DNA of 47,542 bases. Source: a virus. The translations under genes were made by a program, and so were the position numbers. The DNA lies in IMG/VR virus record IMGVR_UViG_3300043399_000487, positions 1 through 47,542 of that record. One strand, written 5' to 3'. The notes under the pieces are model-generated. The model made no database searches and was not told the origin of the DNA. It was given only the letters and a program-made list of their open reading frames with translations. Positions 3,456 to 29,852 of this stretch are shown here, in pieces (position 1 is the first letter of the stretch; the number at the start of each line of letters is the position of its first letter).

Positions 3456-3902
3456 ATATCACACACTACAGAAATTGCCGATATCGTTTTCACCGATGTA
3501 CAGGCCCTGACCGCCGCCGTCAATGAGCTTTCCGCGAATGGCGTTCGCTGCTCCCTAACCAAGGGCGGAACGCCTCGTGCTTTCTACTCCAATCAGGCGG
3601 GTATGAGCGCAGCAGACTACGTGCTTCGTCTTGAGGAATCGCCGTACGATATTGGGTTCTACATGGACAAAGCGAAGAAGGGTATGGTCGCCCGTACTGA
3701 TCTTTTCGCTGGTCGGGTCCAGAAAGTCCTCGGTGCTACAGCAACCGGTAATGAAAGCGCAGCGCAGGCCGCTATGGGTAAGCTGTACCAGACCTATGCA
3801 ATCCATGCGGCCACGCGCAAGGCTATTCAACAGGGTATGACAGTGCAACGGGTTAATGGCAAGGATGGCGCGGTACGCTTGGTCGTTGGCAACATCCGAT
3901 GA
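3456..3902 (+). CDS. DUF1257 (Ycf35-like) protein with an apparent AUA start
   Basis: The protein is 148 aa if translation begins at ATA 3456, giving (M)SHTTEIADIVFTDVQAL, the usual MSH opening of DUF1257 proteins. The frame is open from 3423 and contains no ATG, GTG or TTG before ATG 3603, which would delete the conserved N-terminal third. A GAGAGG ribosome binding site (3442-3447) lies 8 nt before ATA. Recognisable family features are FYSNQAG, the ADYVLRL...YDIGFY region and a C-terminal VQRVNGKDGAVRLVV. It forms a set with the Ycf46-like ATPase and DUF2997; the biochemical role is unknown. Its stop overlaps the next gene as ATGA. The odd start codon could be real, regulated initiation or a sequencing error. 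Confidence 0.85.
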   Translation: MSHTTEIADIVFTDVQALTAAVNELSANGVRCSLTKGGTPRAFYSNQAGMSAADYVLRLEESPYDIGFYMDKAKKGMVARTDLFAGRVQKVLGATATGNESAAQAAMGKLYQTYAIHAATRKAIQQGMTVQRVNGKDGAVRLVVGNIR

Positions 3903-4432
3903 AGCGCCTTGTTAGACAATTCTGGAAGAGCATTCCGGGGTATGAAGGGTTTTACTCTGTATCTCGTACGGGGAGTGTGCGTAGGGATAAGGCATATCGC
4001 TGTACGCAGGAGGGTCGTTTGCTGAAACAGAATACGCGACCGAACGGCTACCTATACGTAGAACTCAATCGAGAAGGGCAGGCCAAGAAGTTCAACACAC
4101 ATGCGCTAGTGGCCTTAGCTTTTATGGGGCCGACCCCTGAAGGCGAAGAGATACGACATTTAGACGGAAACCGTGCTAATCCTTCGCTTAGTAACCTGTC
4201 TTTTGGTACGCATAAAGAGAATGCACAGGATATGGTACTGCATGGGCATACCTACCTAGGTGAAGAACATCATTCGGCGGTATTGACGGATACTATGGTT
4301 TTGGAAATGCGTAGTCTTTTTGCTGCGGGATACACATCAGGATACCTAGCAGGTAACTTTGGTGTTAGCCGCACTACTGCATGGCAGGCAGCGTCAGGCA
4401 AAACATGGAAACATCTAAAGGAGGTAGCATGA
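3899..4432 (+). CDS. Free-standing HNH homing endonuclease (NUMOD4-like, HNH, HTH)
   Basis: This 177-aa protein has the classic modular layout. A NUMOD4-like segment (WKSIPGYEGFYSVSRTGSVRR) is followed by an HNH_3-type nuclease core (THALVALAF, IRHLDGNRANPSLSNLSFGT, with later NAQD) and a C-terminal helix-turn-helix (YLAGNFGVSRTTAWQAASGK). Such proteins cut DNA at specific sites and spread their own genes. It is wedged between the DUF1257 and DUF2997 genes, which normally lie together, with ATGA overlaps on both sides. The Shine-Dalgarno site AAAGGAGG of the DUF2997 gene lies at the end of this ORF. The insertion is therefore seamless and leaves the operon translatable. Confidence 0.93.
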   Translation: MKRLVRQFWKSIPGYEGFYSVSRTGSVRRDKAYRCTQEGRLLKQNTRPNGYLYVELNREGQAKKFNTHALVALAFMGPTPEGEEIRHLDGNRANPSLSNLSFGTHKENAQDMVLHGHTYLGEEHHSAVLTDTMVLEMRSLFAAGYTSGYLAGNFGVSRTTAWQAASGKTWKHLKEVA

Positions 4433-8987: not shown

Positions 8988-9223
8988 TGTCTTTGAAATC
9001 AACTTCAAAAAAAGCGGAACCGGGTAGCGGGTTTGACTCTCACTTGGTTAGTATGGAAGAGGCATGGTGGATACGCGACCATCCTTTCAATACCCGATGT
9101 GTGCGGGTGAAACAAGGGATACGCCGTGTAACGGAACTAGAGGACCAGCTAGACAGAGAGAGAAAACAGCTTGAGTACGTAGTCGAAGATATGAACAAGG
9201 AGCGTCTAAATGCCAAGCATTGA
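8987..9223 (+). CDS. Small coiled-coil protein between helicase and polymerase
   Basis: This 78-aa protein has a Ser/Lys-rich start and a C-terminal heptad-like segment (RVTELEDQLDRERKQLEYVV), probably a short coiled coil. It overlaps the helicase at its start and the polymerase at its end by 14 nt, and its last codons carry the polymerase AAGGAG site. Function unknown; possibly a replisome adaptor. Confidence 0.7.
   Translation: MSLKSTSKKAEPGSGFDSHLVSMEEAWWIRDHPFNTRCVRVKQGIRRVTELEDQLDRERKQLEYVVEDMNKERLNAKH
8993..9008. repeat. 16-bp dyad box, copy 3 (one change)
   Basis: TTGAAATCAACTTCAA, at the 5' end of the small coiled-coil gene, two codons after its ATG. It differs from consensus by C for T in the right arm. 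Confidence 0.55.
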
Positions 9224-12200
9224 CCAGCGACATTGCGAAGGGTGTCCTCTACAGGGGCTTCTTAAACCTGCAGAGGCTATAGGCGATACTTCTGCCCCTT
9301 ACATGGTTGTTTCCGATGTACCTAGCCGCAATGCGTACTCAAAGGGCCGTCTGCTCTCGGAGAGTGCGGGTAAGGTTCTCAAGGAGGGCTTGCGTAGTGC
9401 CGAGTTTGACATAGGCGACTTCTACGTAGTGCCGCAGATACGGTGCCCCTTCGACGCGGACTCCTACGATACCAAACAAAAGCGCGATATCCAGCTACAT
9501 TGCCGGGAGCATTTGCTTGACGATCTGCACGAGTTCAAGCCGGAAGTAATCATCCCTCTTGGTGCCGAGGCTACCCGGCAGGTTGTTAATCGAGCAATCA
9601 AGATTACGAAGGTTCGCGGGGTTGCAGAACAGAGTGCGGAGCACGGCTGCACAGTCCTCCCGCTACTCAGTCCCTCGATGGTGTCCATGTACCCGCAACA
9701 CATGCCGGTATTCAAAGCAGACTGCGAGACCCTTGGGCGACTGATAGACCATGAGTACGATTCGCAGGCGGCAAGTGACGCCATCCTTGGCGACTATGAG
9801 ATTGTTGAAGACCTTGAGTTTCTGATAGAGCAAAACCCCAAGCTGGTTGTCTTCGACTTGGAAACCACTGGGCTTGAGTTCTTCCATACCGGCCCTGATG
9901 ATGCACGCGAGTACGATCCCGCGATTCACGGCAAGGACTTCGACCCTTCCGCCGCTATCCTTACCATGCAGTTCTGCATTCGACCGGGCGAAGCCTACAT
10001 GCTAGTGTGGGATCACCCGGAGGCACCTATCCCCATGCGCCGCAAGCGCAAGCTGATTAACCAGATCGCTAGGCTCCTATGCAGGCCGGGGGTAAAGGTT
10101 GTCGGGCAGAATCTCAAGTACGACTGCAACTACCTCAAAGAGCAGACAGGTATCCGTTTCAAGATTGGTGGCGACACGCTGATGATGGCGGCGCTGCTTG
10201 ACGAGAACATGATAAGCAAGAATCAGGATATTCTTGTCAAGCACTATGTCCCTGAGATGGCAGGGTACGCGGACCATTTCAACGCCACAGTGGATAAGTC
10301 CCGCATGTGGGAGGTACCACTTCCGAAGCTCTTGAACTATGGCTGCGGGGACGTTGATTCTTGCTACCGTCTTTACAAGCGCATGCTCAAAGAGGTGAAA
10401 GCAGACGAGAAGCTATTCAAGCACTATACCTATGTGTCCCTCCCCGGCTTGAACACATTCGCGGGGGTTGAGCAGTACGGCCTAGGTGTGGATTATGAGG
10501 CGTTAGCCTCCTTTGAAGCCCTCATGGAGGAGTCGGTGGCAGAGCAGAATGTCTCGCTTATGTCACAGGTTCCTAAGAGCATTAAACGTAAGCACGTTGA
10601 TGCAGGGCTGAAGTTCAGTAGGGCCGATTTCATACGCGATATCCTCTTCTACCACAAAGACGGCTTCCGGCTGAAGGCCAAGGTATTCACTAAGTCGACG
10701 GCCAAGCTCTCTGCGGACAGGCGCGTTCCTTCAACCTCCTCAAAGGACCATCTCCCGTACTTCTACGATGACTGTCCTTTCACGATGGAACTTTCACAGT
10801 ACGTGAAGGACTCCCGGCTGTTGGGCACGAACATCAAGGGGTTTCAGAAGAAATACATTCACGATGGACTGGTACGTCCAACCTACTCGTTGACCACTAC
10901 TGTCACAGGCCGTTCATCCTGTGTAAAGGACGATACCCCAATAAATACCTTGAGAGGTATCATTCGTGCAGACGCCATAGTTGAGGGGGATTACGTTTTC
11001 ACCCATAAAGGAAGGTGGCGTAAGGTAGTTGAGCTATTCAGAAAAGTACCAACGATGATGTACTCGTTGTACCTGTCGAATAAGAAAATTCTGACAGTTA
11101 CCGGAGAGCATCGGATTTTGCTTAATTCTGGGGAGTGGCGTACAGTACATTCTTTACTGGAAATAGGAGAAGGCAATGCCCTCGCCATGCAAAGCCCATC
11201 TAAAGGATCGCGTACTTACTCGCAGAGTGGCGAACACCTACCGAACGCAGCTACTAACAATACAGGAAGTAGCGGACCTTCACGGAGTCAATCACCTAAC
11301 GGCGCGGGTAATGATAGAACGCTGCCTATCACCGGAGGAGTTCAAGGCACTCAAGAGTACCCGATACCACAAGAGCAAACTGGCAGAGAAGAACCCGCAG
11401 TACGGGCGAGAGTGGGCGTCAGACTGCGAGGATGGACGAGGCTATCTAACCCGCTTAGTGAAAGGGAAGAGGTACTTCGTACATCGGATAGTCTTTGCGG
11501 CGTACCTCGGGATTCCTGTGGAGCTGCTACCGGAGAGTCTGGTAGTTCATCACATAGACGAGAAGCCGAAGAACAATACCCCGGACAACCTAGCGGGATC
11601 GACGGAGGCTGGGCACCAGAAGATACACGAACGGTACCAGACGCCGGGGGAGGACTTGCTATTGAAAAAGTTATCTGTGCGGGAGTGCATCGAGTATATG
11701 ACTTCCAAGTAGAAGAAGACCATAGCTACCTAGCCTGCGGGGTCTTTAATCACAATTCTGAAAATCCGAATGGTCAGAACTTCCCGAAGCGTGGAAAGAA
11801 CGCGAAGGCGTACCGTCGTATCTTTGTCCCACCTCCCGGCTACTACGTGCTTGAGGCAGACCTGTCGCAGGCAGAGCTTCGTATCGCAGCCGATATGGCG
11901 AACGACCGGGCGATGCTTGAGATTTACCGAACGGGCGGGGATATCCACACCGCAACCGCCTGTATCGCTCTTAACAAAACTATGGCGCAGTTCAAGCTAC
12001 TCCCCAAGGCCGAGCAGAAGGATTGGAGAACGAAGGCGAAGGCTATTAACTTCGGCTTCCTGTATGGCATGGGCTGGCGTAAGTTTATCGGGTACGCTAA
12101 GACGCAATACGGAGTAGTCTTTACCGAGGAGGAGGCTCAGTACATTCGTGATGCTTTCTTCGATAGATATTCTGCCCTCCCTGCGTGGCACGCGTCGATG

Positions 12201-12728
12201 CGCGAGTTTGCACATAAACATGGGTACGTCCGGTCGTACTCTGGCAGGATACGGCATCTACCCATGATCGATTCAGAAGAGCAGGGGGTACAGTCAGAAG
12301 CAGAAAGACAGGCTATAAACAGTCCGGTGCAAGAATTCGCCTCTTCACTGGGGGTAATGGCAATGGGCCGCTTGAGCGAAGAGATAGACCCGCAGTACCT
12401 AGCCCCTATCGCCTTCGTGCATGACGCTATCTACTGCTACGTTCCTTACAAGTACGCCGATTGGGGGGCTAGGACGCTAAAGCGGTACATGCAGACAAAC
12501 CCTCTCAAGGAGTGGTTTAATCTACATCTGAAGTGCCCCATCATCGCTGACGTTAGTATTGGTCTTAACCTTGGTGACACGTATGAACTCGAAGGCTTCT
12601 CTCTGGATGAGCCTTACGACTTCGGCAAGCTATGGAACGCGGAAGAGAACTCAGGCTTGCTGGTACCTAAGCAGTACGTACCTCCTCACGAGGGCAGGTT
12701 GCTTACTCCACCCTATACTACTGCGTAG
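9210..12728 (+). CDS. DNA polymerase, family A, with N-terminal UDG-like domain; intein-containing precursor
   Basis: The precursor is 1172 aa; the mature polymerase is about 893 aa. Residues 1-185 resemble family 4 uracil-DNA glycosylase: CEGCPL, two further Cys (PQIRCPF, LHCREHL) spaced for a 4Fe-4S cluster, and LLSPS near the end. The usual catalytic Glu segment is changed to VSDVPS. A 3'-5' exonuclease follows: Exo I VFDLETTG near 216, Exo II VVGQNLKYD, Exo III YGCGDVDS. The polymerase domain has TGRSS (intein site) joined to ENPNGQNFP, motif A EADLSQAELR, motif B KAINFGFLYG and motif C FVHDAIY. It is the phage replicative polymerase and must splice to be active. Loss of the UDG catalytic motif suggests a structural or uracil-sensing role for the N-terminal domain. 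Confidence 0.95.
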   Translation: MPSIDQRHCEGCPLQGLLKPAEAIGDTSAPYMVVSDVPSRNAYSKGRLLSESAGKVLKEGLRSAEFDIGDFYVVPQIRCPFDADSYDTKQKRDIQLHCREHLLDDLHEFKPEVIIPLGAEATRQVVNRAIKITKVRGVAEQSAEHGCTVLPLLSPSMVSMYPQHMPVFKADCETLGRLIDHEYDSQAASDAILGDYEIVEDLEFLIEQNPKLVVFDLETTGLEFFHTGPDDAREYDPAIHGKDFDPSAAILTMQFCIRPGEAYMLVWDHPEAPIPMRRKRKLINQIARLLCRPGVKVVGQNLKYDCNYLKEQTGIRFKIGGDTLMMAALLDENMISKNQDILVKHYVPEMAGYADHFNATVDKSRMWEVPLPKLLNYGCGDVDSCYRLYKRMLKEVKADEKLFKHYTYVSLPGLNTFAGVEQYGLGVDYEALASFEALMEESVAEQNVSLMSQVPKSIKRKHVDAGLKFSRADFIRDILFYHKDGFRLKAKVFTKSTAKLSADRRVPSTSSKDHLPYFYDDCPFTMELSQYVKDSRLLGTNIKGFQKKYIHDGLVRPTYSLTTTVTGRSSCVKDDTPINTLRGIIRADAIVEGDYVFTHKGRWRKVVELFRKVPTMMYSLYLSNKKILTVTGEHRILLNSGEWRTVHSLLEIGEGNALAMQSPSKGSRTYSQSGEHLPNAATNNTGSSGPSRSQSPNGAGNDRTLPITGGVQGTQEYPIPQEQTGREEPAVRARVGVRLRGWTRLSNPLSEREEVLRTSDSLCGVPRDSCGAATGESGSSSHRREAEEQYPGQPSGIDGGWAPEDTRTVPDAGGGLAIEKVICAGVHRVYDFQVEEDHSYLACGVFNHNSENPNGQNFPKRGKNAKAYRRIFVPPPGYYVLEADLSQAELRIAADMANDRAMLEIYRTGGDIHTATACIALNKTMAQFKLLPKAEQKDWRTKAKAINFGFLYGMGWRKFIGYAKTQYGVVFTEEEAQYIRDAFFDRYSALPAWHASMREFAHKHGYVRSYSGRIRHLPMIDSEEQGVQSEAERQAINSPVQEFASSLGVMAMGRLSEEIDPQYLAPIAFVHDAIYCYVPYKYADWGARTLKRYMQTNPLKEWFNLHLKCPIIADVSIGLNLGDTYELEGFSLDEPYDFGKLWNAEENSGLLVPKQYVPPHEGRLLTPPYTTA
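10920..11756 (+). mobile_element. Intein in DNA polymerase with no in-frame endonuclease domain
   Basis: The intein is 279 aa. It opens CVKDDTPINTLRG (Cys1), has block B TVTGEHRILL, and closes with VYDFQVEEDHSYLACGVFNHN split over blocks F and G (His-Asn end), with Ser as +1. Removal joins TGRSS to SENPNGQNFP, the conserved template-binding stretch before motif A. The middle ~160 residues in this frame are Ser/Gly/Arg/Glu-rich and look like filler. A complete HNH gene occupies the same DNA in another frame. Confidence 0.93.
11176..11712 (+). CDS. HNH homing endonuclease overprinted out of frame within the polymerase intein
   Basis: This 178-aa protein lies in a different frame from the polymerase. 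The ATG is preceded by AGGAGAAGG (11165-11173), an excellent ribosome binding site, and the same frame is closed by TAG at 11164, so it is not a frameshifted fusion. The N-terminal helix-turn-helix is LLTIQEVADLHGVNHLTARV. The nuclease core is FVHRIVFAAYLG, then VVHHIDEKPKNNTPDNLAGS and HQKIH, the His-Asn-His pattern of HNH_3 enzymes. The stop falls inside intein block F DNA, so its last ~17 codons overprint essential splicing residues. It would make a homing endonuclease from the polymerase mRNA, independent of splicing. Confidence 0.9.
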   Translation: MPSPCKAHLKDRVLTRRVANTYRTQLLTIQEVADLHGVNHLTARVMIERCLSPEEFKALKSTRYHKSKLAEKNPQYGREWASDCEDGRGYLTRLVKGKRYFVHRIVFAAYLGIPVELLPESLVVHHIDEKPKNNTPDNLAGSTEAGHQKIHERYQTPGEDLLLKKLSVRECIEYMTSK

Positions 12729-12738
12729 CACTGGGGGC

Positions 12739-12768
12739 TTGACAAAGAATCTGATACCGGGGTATAAT
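12739..12768 (+). promoter_or_regulatory. Strong sigma70-type promoter
   Basis: TTGACA (12739-12744), an 18-bp spacer and a perfect TATAAT (12763-12768). It lies directly after the polymerase stop and drives the 12814 gene and probably the primase-SSB group. Confidence 0.85.
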
Positions 12769-12778
12769 GTCGTATAGC

Positions 12779-12795
12779 TTGTAACCAGCTTACAA
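12779..12795. promoter_or_regulatory. Dyad just downstream of the promoter, possible operator
   Basis: TTGTAA-ccagc-TTACAA, a perfect 6+6 inverted repeat placed about +5 to +21 from the predicted start site. It could bind a repressor or form a small 5' hairpin. Confidence 0.4.
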
Positions 12796-12813
12796 CGTAA
12801 AAAGGAGAAAACC

Positions 12814-13233
12814 ATGTCCATAGGACGGATCAGAAGAGTACGCGGTGGGACGAGTCCCGTCGCGGTAGCGGACGTAACAGCAATGCGTGCGACTTTGCAA
12901 TCAATTGCAAAAATGCAGGCGACCATTGTGCAGCTTCAAGCAAATATCTCCCCTTTAGTGGAACAGCTTGAGGAACAGATGGTCAAGGCAAAGATGACCA
13001 CCCTTGAGTGTGCCGAAGCTATTGCTGCCATCACGCGGTCTGCGGGTAAGGCATCAACTACGATTGATGCAAAGAAGTTCTACGACGTAGTGGATGAAGA
13101 TGACTTCTTCGCGTGTGTGACAGTTGGGGTTACTAAGGCCAAGACAGTTCTGGGGCAAAAAGAGATCGACAAGATTTCTACTAAGGTACCCGGTACGGCA
13201 GGACCCCAGAAGCTGTCAATTGTGTTGAAGTAA
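12814..13233 (+). CDS. Hypothetical protein with coiled-coil segment
   Basis: This 139-aa protein is translated from a near-perfect AAAAAGGAG site under the strongest promoter seen in the left half, so it is probably abundant. It has a basic N-terminus (GRIRRVRGG), a helical and likely coiled-coil middle (QSIAKMQATIVQLQANI, EQLEEQMVKAKM) and a compact C-terminal part. No family recognised. Placement just before primase and SSB suggests a replication-linked role. Confidence 0.75.
   Translation: MSIGRIRRVRGGTSPVAVADVTAMRATLQSIAKMQATIVQLQANISPLVEQLEEQMVKAKMTTLECAEAIAAITRSAGKASTTIDAKKFYDVVDEDDFFACVTVGVTKAKTVLGQKEIDKISTKVPGTAGPQKLSIVLK
12895..12910. repeat. 16-bp dyad box, copy 4
   Basis: TTGCAATCAATTGCAA has perfectly complementary C-type arms. 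It lies inside the coding region about 80 nt after the ATG of the 12814 gene. Confidence 0.65.
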
Positions 13234-26007: not shown

Positions 26008-26754
26008 ATGGAAGATACAGGAAGTGACGAACGTGGCCGTAGGATATCCCGTAGAAGTCGCACAGGATTTGCTTTCTCTAGTGCAAGCGTAAGCGCCTCT
26101 ACTTCTAGCGAGGGCGTGCGTGACCTTAATGAGGCAGTAACCGAACAGGCAACCACCCCAGTAGCCACTCTCCCCCCTGTGGCACAGACTGTCGCGGGGA
26201 CGCCCTCGGAGGAGTTCAATCCACGTGATCGACTCGCACAAGTACGTGCGCGTTCGGGGGAGTACGAGAAAGAATACCGTCTAGGTTTATTGCACCGTTT
26301 GATGATGCGGCGCATACCGATGGACGAAATAGCATCGCAGTTAGGCGTATCGCTGGCTACGGTCTACCGTGATAGGGAGGAGCTAAAGACTAGGCTACGT
26401 GGGGAGGCACGGGGTCTGGATATCGAGGAGATTATCGGAGACAGCAAAGGTTGGTATGACGAGGCGGGGGCTATGGCGATGCGTGCTGCTTCCAACTCCA
26501 ATGTACCCATGCCTATGCGTCTTGCTGCCATTCGTACCGCTCTCGCTGCTAGGAACGATATGCACCGCTTCTTCCAGACTGCGGGGGTTTATGATGTCCT
26601 CCGGTTTCGTATGGCGCAGGACGGTAGTGGAGTCTCTGACGTTAAGCGCCTTATGGAGAATACCGAGCGTGTTCTTAACGGGGATAAGATTGCGTTCAGT
26701 AACGCAATCAATGAGGTAATTGACTCTGGCGATACAGAGAGTCTTGAGCTATGA
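26008..26754 (+). CDS. terS: Terminase small subunit (putative)
   Basis: This 248-aa protein lies immediately upstream of, and coupled by ATGA to, the large terminase. A Ser/Thr-rich disordered N-terminus (~80 aa) precedes a helix-turn-helix (RRIPMDEIASQLGVSLATVY, residues ~108-127) suited to binding packaging-site DNA. A helical oligomerisation-like region and an acidic C-terminus follow. Identification rests on position, HTH and size; the sequence is not a textbook TerS. AGGAG precedes the ATG. Confidence 0.72.
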   Translation: MEDTGSDERGRRISRRSRTGFAFSSASVSASTSSEGVRDLNEAVTEQATTPVATLPPVAQTVAGTPSEEFNPRDRLAQVRARSGEYEKEYRLGLLHRLMMRRIPMDEIASQLGVSLATVYRDREELKTRLRGEARGLDIEEIIGDSKGWYDEAGAMAMRAASNSNVPMPMRLAAIRTALAARNDMHRFFQTAGVYDVLRFRMAQDGSGVSDVKRLMENTERVLNGDKIAFSNAINEVIDSGDTESLEL

Positions 26755-29700
26755 CCACACGTCGTGTACGTAGGGGTAGAAGGCCAATGCCGGGTATAGC
26801 CGCTGGGGTGAGTGAGCAGGCGGCTATGATGGTGCGGCAGGCCCGAGAGGCCATAGAGACCTGTGAGAACAAGCTGTTCGGGGAGATGTACGCTACCGCC
26901 CTTGAGAGGAAGGTGTATCACAACGATCATCATCTGTTCAACTTTATGAAACGGTTGAAGCACCCACCTGTAGCTATCGAAGTATTCCTTGATGACCCAG
27001 AGTACCTAGGGGCTACGGACATTGTGCTTTGGCCGGAAGTTCGCAAGGCCATTATTGAGATCAATCAGGAATGGTGGAAGGGGCCGGAGCATACGACATG
27101 CAACGCTGAGGCGATACTGATGGGTTCGACCTCTTCTGGTAAGTCTGAAATCTCCAAGATCACCACGCTGTACCATCTCTACCTTCTCTCCTGCATCGAT
27201 ACGCCCCAGACCTTATACGGACTGCCGCGCACTACCTCAATCGTCTTCGCTATCATGGCGGCAAAGCCTCACGTAACGAAGAAGGTTCTCTACGCCCCTA
27301 TGCGTAGTATCGTGGAGACAGTACCTTACTTCCAGAAGCATCTCAGGCCGAATAAGCTAGTTGAGTCTGAAATGATTTTTGATGAGCAGAACATTCGTGT
27401 AGTGCCGGGAGGCTCCGATGCAGACTCGATTCTAGGTGAAGCCATCATTGGCGGGATCGTGGATGAAATCAACTTTATGAACGTTGTCCTGAAATCCAAG
27501 AAGGCCGAAGTATCTACCGGACGCGCTGGCATGTTTGACCAAGCGCAGGTAGTCCACGGCACTATGGTAAGGCGGAAGAAAGGCCGGTTTATCTACCGGG
27601 GGCCGACGATAGGCATCGTATGTACCTCATCATCCACCCGGTACAAGGGTGACTTTACCGACAAGCGCAAACAGCAGGTAATAAAGAACAATGAGAAGAA
27701 CGTCTACATCTACGACAAGCCCCAGTATGAAGTGTGGCCGCAGGACCGGTATTGTGGGGAGAAGTTCCGCCTTCTTGTCGGTAACGATATTATCAGTGAT
27801 ACACGAATCCTCAAGGAGGGCGAGACATACCCTGAAGGGTCTTTGGTACTTGATATCCCTGTTGAGTACCTTAGCGATTTTCAGCGCGATCCTCATTCCG
27901 CTTTACGTGATGTATGTGGTCTGTCTACTAGCTCTATCAGCCCGTTCTTCAAGCGCCGTTTCAAGATTTACGAGGCGATTTCGCTGGGGGAGGAGATTGG
28001 CCTAGAGTCCTTCCTGCAACAGGACAATGTAATCCTTGGATTGAACGACATGCCACGGGTCAAGTTCGGGCACTATTGCGCGAACCCTTCTCGTCCCCGC
28101 TATGTGCATATCGACCTTTCAACCACGGGCGACAGGTGCGTCGCGCAAGGACAGCCCGTATTGATGGCTGACGGTAGGTATGTTCCTATCGAGTACGTCA
28201 GAGTAGGGGATACCGTTGTTACGCATGAAGGCGGGTACGAAGAGGTCACTAAGGTATTTGATAATGGGATAAAAGACGTACTAGACGTAGGTGTGTACGG
28301 ATGGCCTGATGCTCTTAGGGCAACGGCTACGCATAGCGTCTGGGCCGTCAGAAGAGAAAACATTTCCTACGTGGACGGTAGGCTAGTAAAACCCTCTGAT
28401 AGTATGTTTTCGGGTAGGTCGTCAAAGGCCGCGAAGACGCGCTATAGCTATGCCCCTGAGTTCGTAGAGCTAGGGTCACTACGTCCCGGAGACTTCCTAG
28501 TTACGCCTCGTAGAGAGACGCAGACCCACTCGAATATCTGTGGTATTCCGCTGACGTACGAGACCGGGTATATTGCCGGTCTATTCGCAGCAGAGGGGAG
28601 TTTTTATCACCATCACGGTACTGAGTACGTGCAGTTCTCCATCCACGAGAATGAAATAAAGATACGTAATACCCTTGAAGAGTACCTTCGTGACAATTTC
28701 GGGGTAGGGTTACGGGTATGCCGGGATGGGAAGTCTAAAGGCATTACGTTGCGCACTCGGAAGAGCGAGGCGCTTGTATCGTTCCTTCTTGCGGCGGTTG
28801 GGGAGTATTCACATGAGAAGCACCTAGACTGTGCCAGTATCGGTACGGCGCTGTTCCATGCAGGGGTAGCCCATGGGTACGTAGACGGCGACGGACACGT
28901 ACGCTATGACGAATCGGGAAGCCCGGTATATTTCCGAACTAAATCAGTAAGTAAAAAGATGGCTACTTCCTTCTACTGGCTACTCGTATCCAACGGGTTC
29001 ACTCCGTCTATGGGGGCGGAAGTCGCGTATATAGATAAGGTAGGCGTAGCGCATCGTACCTGCCACTACGTATCTCTATCCGGTAAGGAATCTCTTAAAG
29101 CCTTCACCACTTGGAACGCGCAGGCTATCGATGTACCGTGTTCCCAAATACTTGCCCTGAAGGATTACCTACTTTCTCCTATAACCCGTATGGAGAACGG
29201 CGGAGCTTCGCGTGTATTCGACCTTACCGTAGGGGATACCCATAGCTACGTCGTAGGAAATACAGCCGTTCATAACTGTGGTATCTCTATGGTCCGTTTT
29301 GACGGCATGGTAGATGTGGAGCGGTCGGGAGGTATCATTGAAAAACTCCCTCTAGCTTCAGTGGAGCTTGCTTGTTCCATCCAACCAGACTCTAATAACG
29401 AATTGCAGTTTGCCGAAGTACGTACGTGGGTCAAGCAGCTTCGAGATGTGTATGGCTACCCCATCAAGGCAGTAACGTACGACGGTATTTTCAGTATCGA
29501 GTCGATCCAGCAGTGGCGGAAGCAGGGGATGAAGACAGGGCACGTGTCTGTCGATAAGACTTCGGTACCGTACAAGCAGTTGCGGGATACGTTCAACGAT
29601 GGACGACTCCGTATGTTCTCACAAGATATACTTGTGTCCGAGTTGTTTGAGCTTGAGTACGACGAAAACAAAGACAAGATCGATCACCCTGTCAATGGCA

Positions 29701-29852
29701 GTAAAGACGTGGCTGATGCGGTATGCGGTGCGTACTACTCTATGCTGCAGCGCCGTACCTCATGGGCCAATATAGCTCATGAGGATGCGACTATTGACGC
29801 AGGGAATCGTGCCGAGTATGAGGATAGGTATGAATATGGAGGGAGAAACTAA
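26751..29852 (+). CDS. terL: Terminase large subunit, intein-containing precursor
   Basis: The precursor is 1033 aa; after removal of the intein (residues 463-842) the enzyme is about 653 aa. The ATPase domain has Walker A GSTSSGKS (near 125) and Walker B IIGGIVDEINF (near 237), followed by TSSSTRYKG, the coupling motif region. The RNase H-like nuclease has VHIDLSTTGDR (catalytic Asp, then the intein), AVTYDGIFSIESIQQW, and late DVADAVCGAYYSML. It packages DNA by ATP-driven translocation and cuts concatemers. The intein separates the nuclease Asp motif from CGISMVRFDG, so nuclease activity should depend on splicing. TAATG overlap with the next gene. Confidence 0.93.
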   Translation: MTTRRVRRGRRPMPGIAAGVSEQAAMMVRQAREAIETCENKLFGEMYATALERKVYHNDHHLFNFMKRLKHPPVAIEVFLDDPEYLGATDIVLWPEVRKAIIEINQEWWKGPEHTTCNAEAILMGSTSSGKSEISKITTLYHLYLLSCIDTPQTLYGLPRTTSIVFAIMAAKPHVTKKVLYAPMRSIVETVPYFQKHLRPNKLVESEMIFDEQNIRVVPGGSDADSILGEAIIGGIVDEINFMNVVLKSKKAEVSTGRAGMFDQAQVVHGTMVRRKKGRFIYRGPTIGIVCTSSSTRYKGDFTDKRKQQVIKNNEKNVYIYDKPQYEVWPQDRYCGEKFRLLVGNDIISDTRILKEGETYPEGSLVLDIPVEYLSDFQRDPHSALRDVCGLSTSSISPFFKRRFKIYEAISLGEEIGLESFLQQDNVILGLNDMPRVKFGHYCANPSRPRYVHIDLSTTGDRCVAQGQPVLMADGRYVPIEYVRVGDTVVTHEGGYEEVTKVFDNGIKDVLDVGVYGWPDALRATATHSVWAVRRENISYVDGRLVKPSDSMFSGRSSKAAKTRYSYAPEFVELGSLRPGDFLVTPRRETQTHSNICGIPLTYETGYIAGLFAAEGSFYHHHGTEYVQFSIHENEIKIRNTLEEYLRDNFGVGLRVCRDGKSKGITLRTRKSEALVSFLLAAVGEYSHEKHLDCASIGTALFHAGVAHGYVDGDGHVRYDESGSPVYFRTKSVSKKMATSFYWLLVSNGFTPSMGAEVAYIDKVGVAHRTCHYVSLSGKESLKAFTTWNAQAIDVPCSQILALKDYLLSPITRMENGGASRVFDLTVGDTHSYVVGNTAVHNCGISMVRFDGMVDVERSGGIIEKLPLASVELACSIQPDSNNELQFAEVRTWVKQLRDVYGYPIKAVTYDGIFSIESIQQWRKQGMKTGHVSVDKTSVPYKQLRDTFNDGRLRMFSQDILVSELFELEYDENKDKIDHPVNGSKDVADAVCGAYYSMLQRRTSWANIAHEDATIDAGNRAEYEDRYEYGGRN
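28137..29276 (+). mobile_element. Intein with in-frame LAGLIDADG endonuclease in TerL
   Basis: The intein is 380 aa. Cys1 CVAQGQPVLMADG; block B ATATHSVWAV; two LAGLIDADG-type helices YIAGLFAAEGSFY and VAHGYVDGDGHV; block F/G FDLTVGDTHSY then NTAVHN; +1 Cys. The endonuclease is fused in frame and appears complete, so this is probably a mobile, active intein. It is inserted three residues after STT of the nuclease HIDLSTTGDR motif. Confidence 0.94.

Follow-up and report, generated by a model that had tools for sequence, protein, structure and literature searches.

In the textbook picture of an intein, a single protein combines the functions of splicing and mobility. In mobile inteins with an in-frame HNH or LAGLIDADG endonuclease, a Hint domain occupies a conserved site of an essential gene, the endonuclease lies between blocks B and F, and empty as well as decayed alleles occur. 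A different arrangement was reportedly described by Dassa and co-workers in 2009 for fractured genes, in which a free-standing endonuclease gene separates the two halves of a split intein. HNH endonucleases of the I-HmuI type are encoded in group I introns of phage polA genes (phiL7, PPWS1, PhAPEC7, Dor1, and others), where they form a separate ORF within a self-splicing element. Finally, the ShiLan domain of an actinobacteriophage methylase is an out-of-frame HNH insert with a patchy distribution, which is open in the host frame and carries the HNH in another frame; it has neither a splicing domain nor a recognizable ribosome-binding site and is thought to be retained in the protein (PMC11855218). 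The ShiLan domain is the only out-of-frame HNH of such a kind in the literature we searched, and a 2025 preprint on the "non-canonical architecture" of actinobacteriophage inteins may describe related cases.

Here we analyze an intein in the family A DNA polymerase gene (polA) of a virus record of 47,542 bases, referred to as the window. It shares the Hint domain, the conserved site in an essential gene, the position of the endonuclease between blocks B and F, and the empty and decayed alleles with in-frame mobile inteins, but its endonuclease is encoded in the other frame, has its own start, and lies outside the spliced protein. With the ShiLan domain it has in common the open host frame, the HNH in another frame, and the patchy distribution; unlike that insertion, it contains a Hint domain, belongs to a conserved intein that would remove itself, and shows enriched Shine-Dalgarno (SD) sites. 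As in fractured genes, a separate endonuclease gene lies between the intein halves, but the host frame is open, so that one polypeptide would be made and spliced in cis. The intron-encoded polA enzymes belong to the same HTH-HNH family and are found at the same polA motif, but their carrier is an RNA intron and the exon frame is not kept. The polA element is a variant of the mobile intein, and a widespread one.

An intein and an HNH gene in two frames of polA

A preliminary description, made from the sequence of the window, had placed intein blocks A, B, F, and G in the polymerase frame, with no endonuclease domain there, and a complete HNH gene out of frame between them. The coordinates of both elements were confirmed and the domain matches agree (Table 1). 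The polymerase is encoded by one unbroken ORF and not by the two host ORFs of a split intein or fractured gene. Its N-terminal part (9210–9750) is a fused uracil-DNA-glycosylase (UDG) superfamily domain (Pfam UDG, 2e-11), which is likewise present in Pseudomonas phage SM1.

Table 1. Features of the polA locus in the window and of two terminase-intein loci in phage isolates
Feature	Coordinates	Strand	Description
polA	9210..12728	+	1172 aa, family A DNA polymerase with intein; Pfam DNA_pol_A 6e-57, PHROG 17
Intein	10920..11756	+	279 codons, polA frame; ...VTGRSS/intein/SENPNGQNFPK...; Pfam/TIGRFAM
N-terminal Hint half	10920..11174	+	Cys1 at 10920-10922; block B T-x-x-H at 11100-11111
polA-frame linker	11175..11651	+	Stop-free, unfolded in the model, overlaps the HNH gene
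C-terminal Hint half	11652..11756	+	Blocks F and G; His278-Asn279 at 11751-11756, Ser+1 at 11757; TIGR01443
AGGAG Shine-Dalgarno	11165..11169	+	6 nt before ATG 11176; overlaps in-frame TAG 11164-11166
HNH homing-endonuclease gene	11176..11712	+	178 codons, +1 relative to polA; HNH_3 5e-9, phrog_7545 2e-14
N-terminal helical/HTH region	11191..11379	+	HNH protein residues 6-68; predicted model
HNH nuclease core	11473..11628	+	Residues 100-151; Pfam HNH_3 100-148, family alignment
Zn-type HNH ORF, Gordonia phage Clown	L087:2317-3459		+1 frame, unannotated
Zn-type HNH ORF, Synechococcus phage S-EIVl	L088:2383-3378		+1 frame, unannotated

The intein matches Pfam Intein_splicing (6e-7), Hint_2, TIGR01443, and TIGR01445. 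A PDB profile search identified the splicing domain of PI-MtuI (1e-9), and the predicted fold matches the gp41-1 intein (E 1.5e-4), which makes it mini-intein-like. Its key residues are C1, T61-x-x-H64, and H278-N279, followed by Ser+1. Based on an alignment of 21 polA-intein members, C1, H64, H278, and N279 are invariant, T61 is nearly so, and the +1 extein residue is S or C. In the predicted model of the polA-frame product, both ends adopt a good Hint fold (pLDDT 88–96 for residues 1–80 and 71–94 for the C-terminal half), with an unstructured stretch in between (residues 85–243, pLDDT about 35). This linker showed neither a domain match nor a detectable fold, unlike the in-frame endonuclease of a canonical large intein. 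By its splicing residues, its Hint fold, and the empty alleles described below, the insert is a class-1-type intein, which is predicted to splice.

The overprinted ORF is by far the top match of the HNH family model within the window, and its last codons overlap block F, which runs from 11694. The model predicted with the family alignment shows a helical HTH region and a beta-beta-alpha core (pLDDT 87), in agreement with the N-terminal HTH and canonical HNH core named in the preliminary description; the HTH region also gave weak matches to HipB-type HTHs in a PDB profile search. His126, Asn138, His147, and His151 are invariant among the 22 members aligned. The best solved match of the model is I-HmuI (E = 0.019, at a low TM of 0.31), which is encoded in the polA intron of SPO1. 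The protein thus combines the HNH motif, the catalytic residues, and the DNA-binding domain of an HNH homing endonuclease and, judging from its position and its relatives, most likely cleaves the element-free allele near the insertion site. The ribosome-binding site claimed for the gene is present and overlaps an in-frame stop codon, and its duplex energy of –7.3 kcal/mol ranks in the top 8% among off-frame starts of the same gene.

The window harbors two more inteins, one in the Walker A (P-loop) region of an AAA-ATPase gene (154–2706) with an in-frame HNH_3 domain and one in a terminase-large-like gene (26748–29846) with an in-frame LAGLIDADG endonuclease. In contrast to the polA intein, both show many stops in their other frames. 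A free-standing NUMOD4-HNH endonuclease gene is located at 3857–4426.

Relatives at the same polA site

Searches of IMG/VR with a single protein, either the HNH or the intein of the window, returned almost nothing and no close copy, the protein search finding only distant HNHs, because the members of the family are merely 34–50% identical. Better results were obtained with DNA patterns placed at the junction between intein and polA. A scan for the intein end combined with the polA motif yielded 19 loci, and 7 further distinct inteins at the same site with an HNH in the +1 frame and a polymerase frame open throughout came from this junction scan. The first DNA patterns gave 12 overprinted members, a number that rose to 25 after patterns based on the distance between HNH motif and intein end had been added. 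Such patterns with a fixed gap to the HNH preselect the +1 phase; frame-neutral are the junction scan and a pattern of block F, HN, and xPNxQ, which matched 48 loci. After removal of duplicates, these comprised 32 intact +1 HNHs (a few clipped by contig ends), 3 decayed HNHs, 3 other long +1 endonucleases, 1 split locus, and 1 that was too short. None of the 48 loci carries an in-frame HNH, and inteins of that kind were found at the polA site only in RcKickapoo and L025.

Adding the window and another three loci obtained by the distance patterns brings the 32 intact copies to about 36 overprinted members, ∼35 of them beyond the window. All come from metagenomic contigs, with none in INPHARED and none in plasmids. 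Two loci matched by chance (L019/L026), and one match of the genome-contig scan was spurious (L039). The same phase in dozens of independent contigs and in the two isolates listed in Table 1 rules out a sequencing artefact by paired indels, the error that the preliminary description had wanted excluded. Two of the polymerases, L038 and L024, are unusually long (about 1530–1560 aa), and the C-terminal part of L038 contains an intein-like start (NCLDAETEALT), perhaps of a second polA intein. At a different polA site, the polymerase of Aeromonas phage HJ05 (L006) is interrupted between motifs by an ORF-bearing segment (3551–4218), probably an intron or an inserted gene.

Comparison of related polymerases, as suggested in the preliminary description, recovered intein-minus, overprinted HNH-plus, and decayed alleles. 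Intein-free alleles at the exact site are present in phage SM1 (L007, TRRTASRDPNGQNFPK), in L003 (TGRTSSEDPNGQNFPK), and in L004 (TGRSASRDPNGQNFPK). L009 has lost the HNH start and core to deletions whose lengths (3, 84, and 141 nt) are each divisible by three; the HNH is likewise decayed in L072 and L085, with an open polymerase frame. Since decayed copies keep the polA frame and lose the HNH, the former is indispensable and the latter dispensable, as expected of a selfish homing gene. Empty, overprinted, and decayed alleles are visible states of a presumed homing cycle. In L016/L022, a related gene is found at the same polA site, but there the host frame is broken, so that the endonuclease ORF separates the two parts of a split intein. 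The terminase-like loci L035/L037 show such a split arrangement, too.

Constraint on both frames

To determine how many stops the polA frame would contain by chance, the HNH codons were replaced synonymously according to the codon usage of the polA gene of the same phage. For the window, 9.4 stops are expected on average and none is seen; not one of 4000 redraws was stop-free, so that the chance of about 5 in 10,000 given in the preliminary description was, if anything, generous. Over 25 polA members, no stop was found against 216 expected, with a summed log10 P of about –72 that is indicative only, because the members share ancestry and their independence is overstated. Another 12 members, one of which (L084) is a near-duplicate of the already counted L034, again show 0 stops versus 96 expected. 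In comparison, 13 homologous HNHs located in introns or split genes contain 7–25 exon-frame stops each.

The HNH frame is under purifying selection as well, a point for which the preliminary description had called for a test. Among 12 members, codon position 3 of the HNH gene is the most variable in all 66 pairs, and mean amino acid identity is 46% for the HNH versus 24% for the linker frame. In addition to the invariant catalytic residues, Met1 is invariant and the N-terminus MSxSKxW is conserved in 22 members. Almost no polymorphism was found in near-identical pairs of members.

An overlap in the +1 phase is nearly free of cost, because the T of each polA-frame stop is the wobble base of an HNH codon and the change from NNT to NNC is always synonymous. 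HNH wobble T is absent before AA, AG, or GA (0/381), compared with 51% elsewhere in the same genes; the respective values are 55% and 53% for intron HNHs and 39% and 39% for exteins. The zero itself follows from the openness of the polA frame. The informative point is that C stands in for T at no cost to the HNH protein.

Origin, expression, and generality of the overprinted gene

The nearest HNHs outside the family belong to phage polA genes, where most of them reside in group I introns. The insertions are at TGRLSSSNP/NLQN or SDPNL/QN, i.e., 12–18 nt from the intein site, and the intron of SPO1 lies in between, at Asn675/Leu676 in E. coli numbering (PMC2814812). The group I intron calls (RF00028, five of six control loci) have E values of 2e-6 to 1.5e-4, below Rfam's cut-off. 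In the tree, a branch with 99/100 support divides the overprinted HNHs from those of the polA group I introns. Because the overprinted HNHs form one group behind this branch, the most likely scenario is a single old capture with subsequent co-spread, rather than a recent one-off event. Identity amounts to 25–30% for exteins, 45% for Hint domains, and 46% for HNHs, and Hint and HNH identities are correlated (r = 0.80); the higher conservation of the intein relative to the extein could partly reflect stronger constraint. The donor gene probably belonged to an HNH lineage targeting polA, the nearest relatives of which reside in group I introns within the same polA motif, and we infer that the gene moved from this lineage into the intein. 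The selection signatures in both frames and the family of homologues support the earlier proposal that an HNH gene entered the intein out of frame and that both frames were kept open.

Alternatively, the locus could descend from an ordinary in-frame HNH intein by two compensating frameshifts, real or erroneous, without capture of a separate gene. In-frame HNH inteins do exist at the same site in RcKickapoo and L025 and in the AAA-ATPase gene of this phage. Sequencing error is ruled out by the recurrence of the phase, and a real double frameshift is unlikely given that a separate start, an SD site, and an N-terminal HTH are present in the overprinted HNHs, which group with intron HNHs, whereas the HNH of RcKickapoo forms a very long, unrelated branch.

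In 16 of 21 members, the SD strength at the HNH start ranks within the best 20% of the ATG/GTG starts used as off-frame controls, while the sites of about five members are weak. Initiation from the gene's own ATG and SD sequence is plausible, and with the conserved start codon and the SD enrichment it is plausible that endonuclease synthesis is uncoupled from splicing, as the preliminary description had it. Programmed ribosomal frameshifting from the N-terminal half of the intein would instead produce a Hint-N/HNH fusion with no separate start. In L011, L020, L033, L038, and L062, the HNH frame is indeed open for a number of codons before the start, but we consider this mechanism quite improbable in view of the invariant start codon, the conserved N-terminus, the SD enrichment, and the little space left for a shift site in the window, L012, L015, L018, and L024, where an HNH-frame stop lies at most 3 codons from the start. 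It is hardly conceivable that the insert represents a group I intron and that its HNH gene leaves polA open by mere chance: the HNH relatives do reside in polA group I introns at nearly the same position, but no group I intron match and hence no RF00028 catalytic core was found in positions 9000–13000 of the window at E values up to 5, using a tool that detected five of six control loci, and the motifs for intein splicing do not vary among 21 members.

We therefore favor, with a probability of roughly 85%, a composite mobile intein that encodes two proteins in two frames and arose when an HNH gene of the intron lineage was captured out of frame and co-spread with its carrier. The polA frame would provide the Hint splicing domain with a linker of ∼155 unstructured residues and, given its conserved splicing residues, excise from the polymerase. 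The +1 frame would give rise to a separate HTH-HNH homing endonuclease, presumably initiated at its own ATG and SD sequence. Judging from the position of the insert, the most likely target of this enzyme is the TGRxSS-xxPNxQN motif of intein-free polA, and repair off the intein-bearing allele would copy intein and HNH gene together. The most likely history involves a single capture.

Overprinting also occurs with other endonucleases and in another gene. Three polA inteins (L017, L070, L078/L080) carry a different endonuclease in the +1 frame, which is DUF559-like in L017 (8e-5) and was assigned by inspection in the other two; 295–418 codons are overlapped, with 0 host-frame stops versus 12–31 expected. 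Zn-type HNHs are located in the +1 frame of the terminase inteins L050/L058, L055, and L067 and, among isolates, of Gordonia phage Clown and Synechococcus phage S-EIVl. The latter two match Intein_splicing at 3e-14 and 1e-11, respectively, and have no host-frame stop where 5.6 (Clown) and 19.6 (S-EIVl) are expected. On balance, we lean toward the view that overprinting is a major, overlooked way of carrying endonucleases in phage inteins and the usual one at the polA site in environmental phages. It would have at least three independent origins, counting HTH-HNH and DUF559/Vsr-like enzymes in polA and Zn-type HNHs in terminase genes, and always use the +1 phase, because synonymous NNT to NNC changes in the endonuclease gene remove any host-frame stop.

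With the two functions of an intein provided by separate proteins from overlapping frames, endonuclease dose, timing, and folding could be set apart from splicing. The polA element also suggests a route by which a homing gene and an intein may unite, namely, out-of-frame capture with no protein fusion, the host frame being opened by silent changes. One testable scheme thereby joins group I intron endonucleases, split inteins, ShiLan-type inserts, and mini-inteins. In addition, the overprinted inteins constitute a sizeable natural collection of long overlapping genes in phages (about 155–420 codons). Annotation overlooks the arrangement, as in the records of Clown and S-EIVl, where the terminase is the sole annotation at the locus. 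A selfish gene can thus divide the functions of splicing and spreading across two frames of one DNA.
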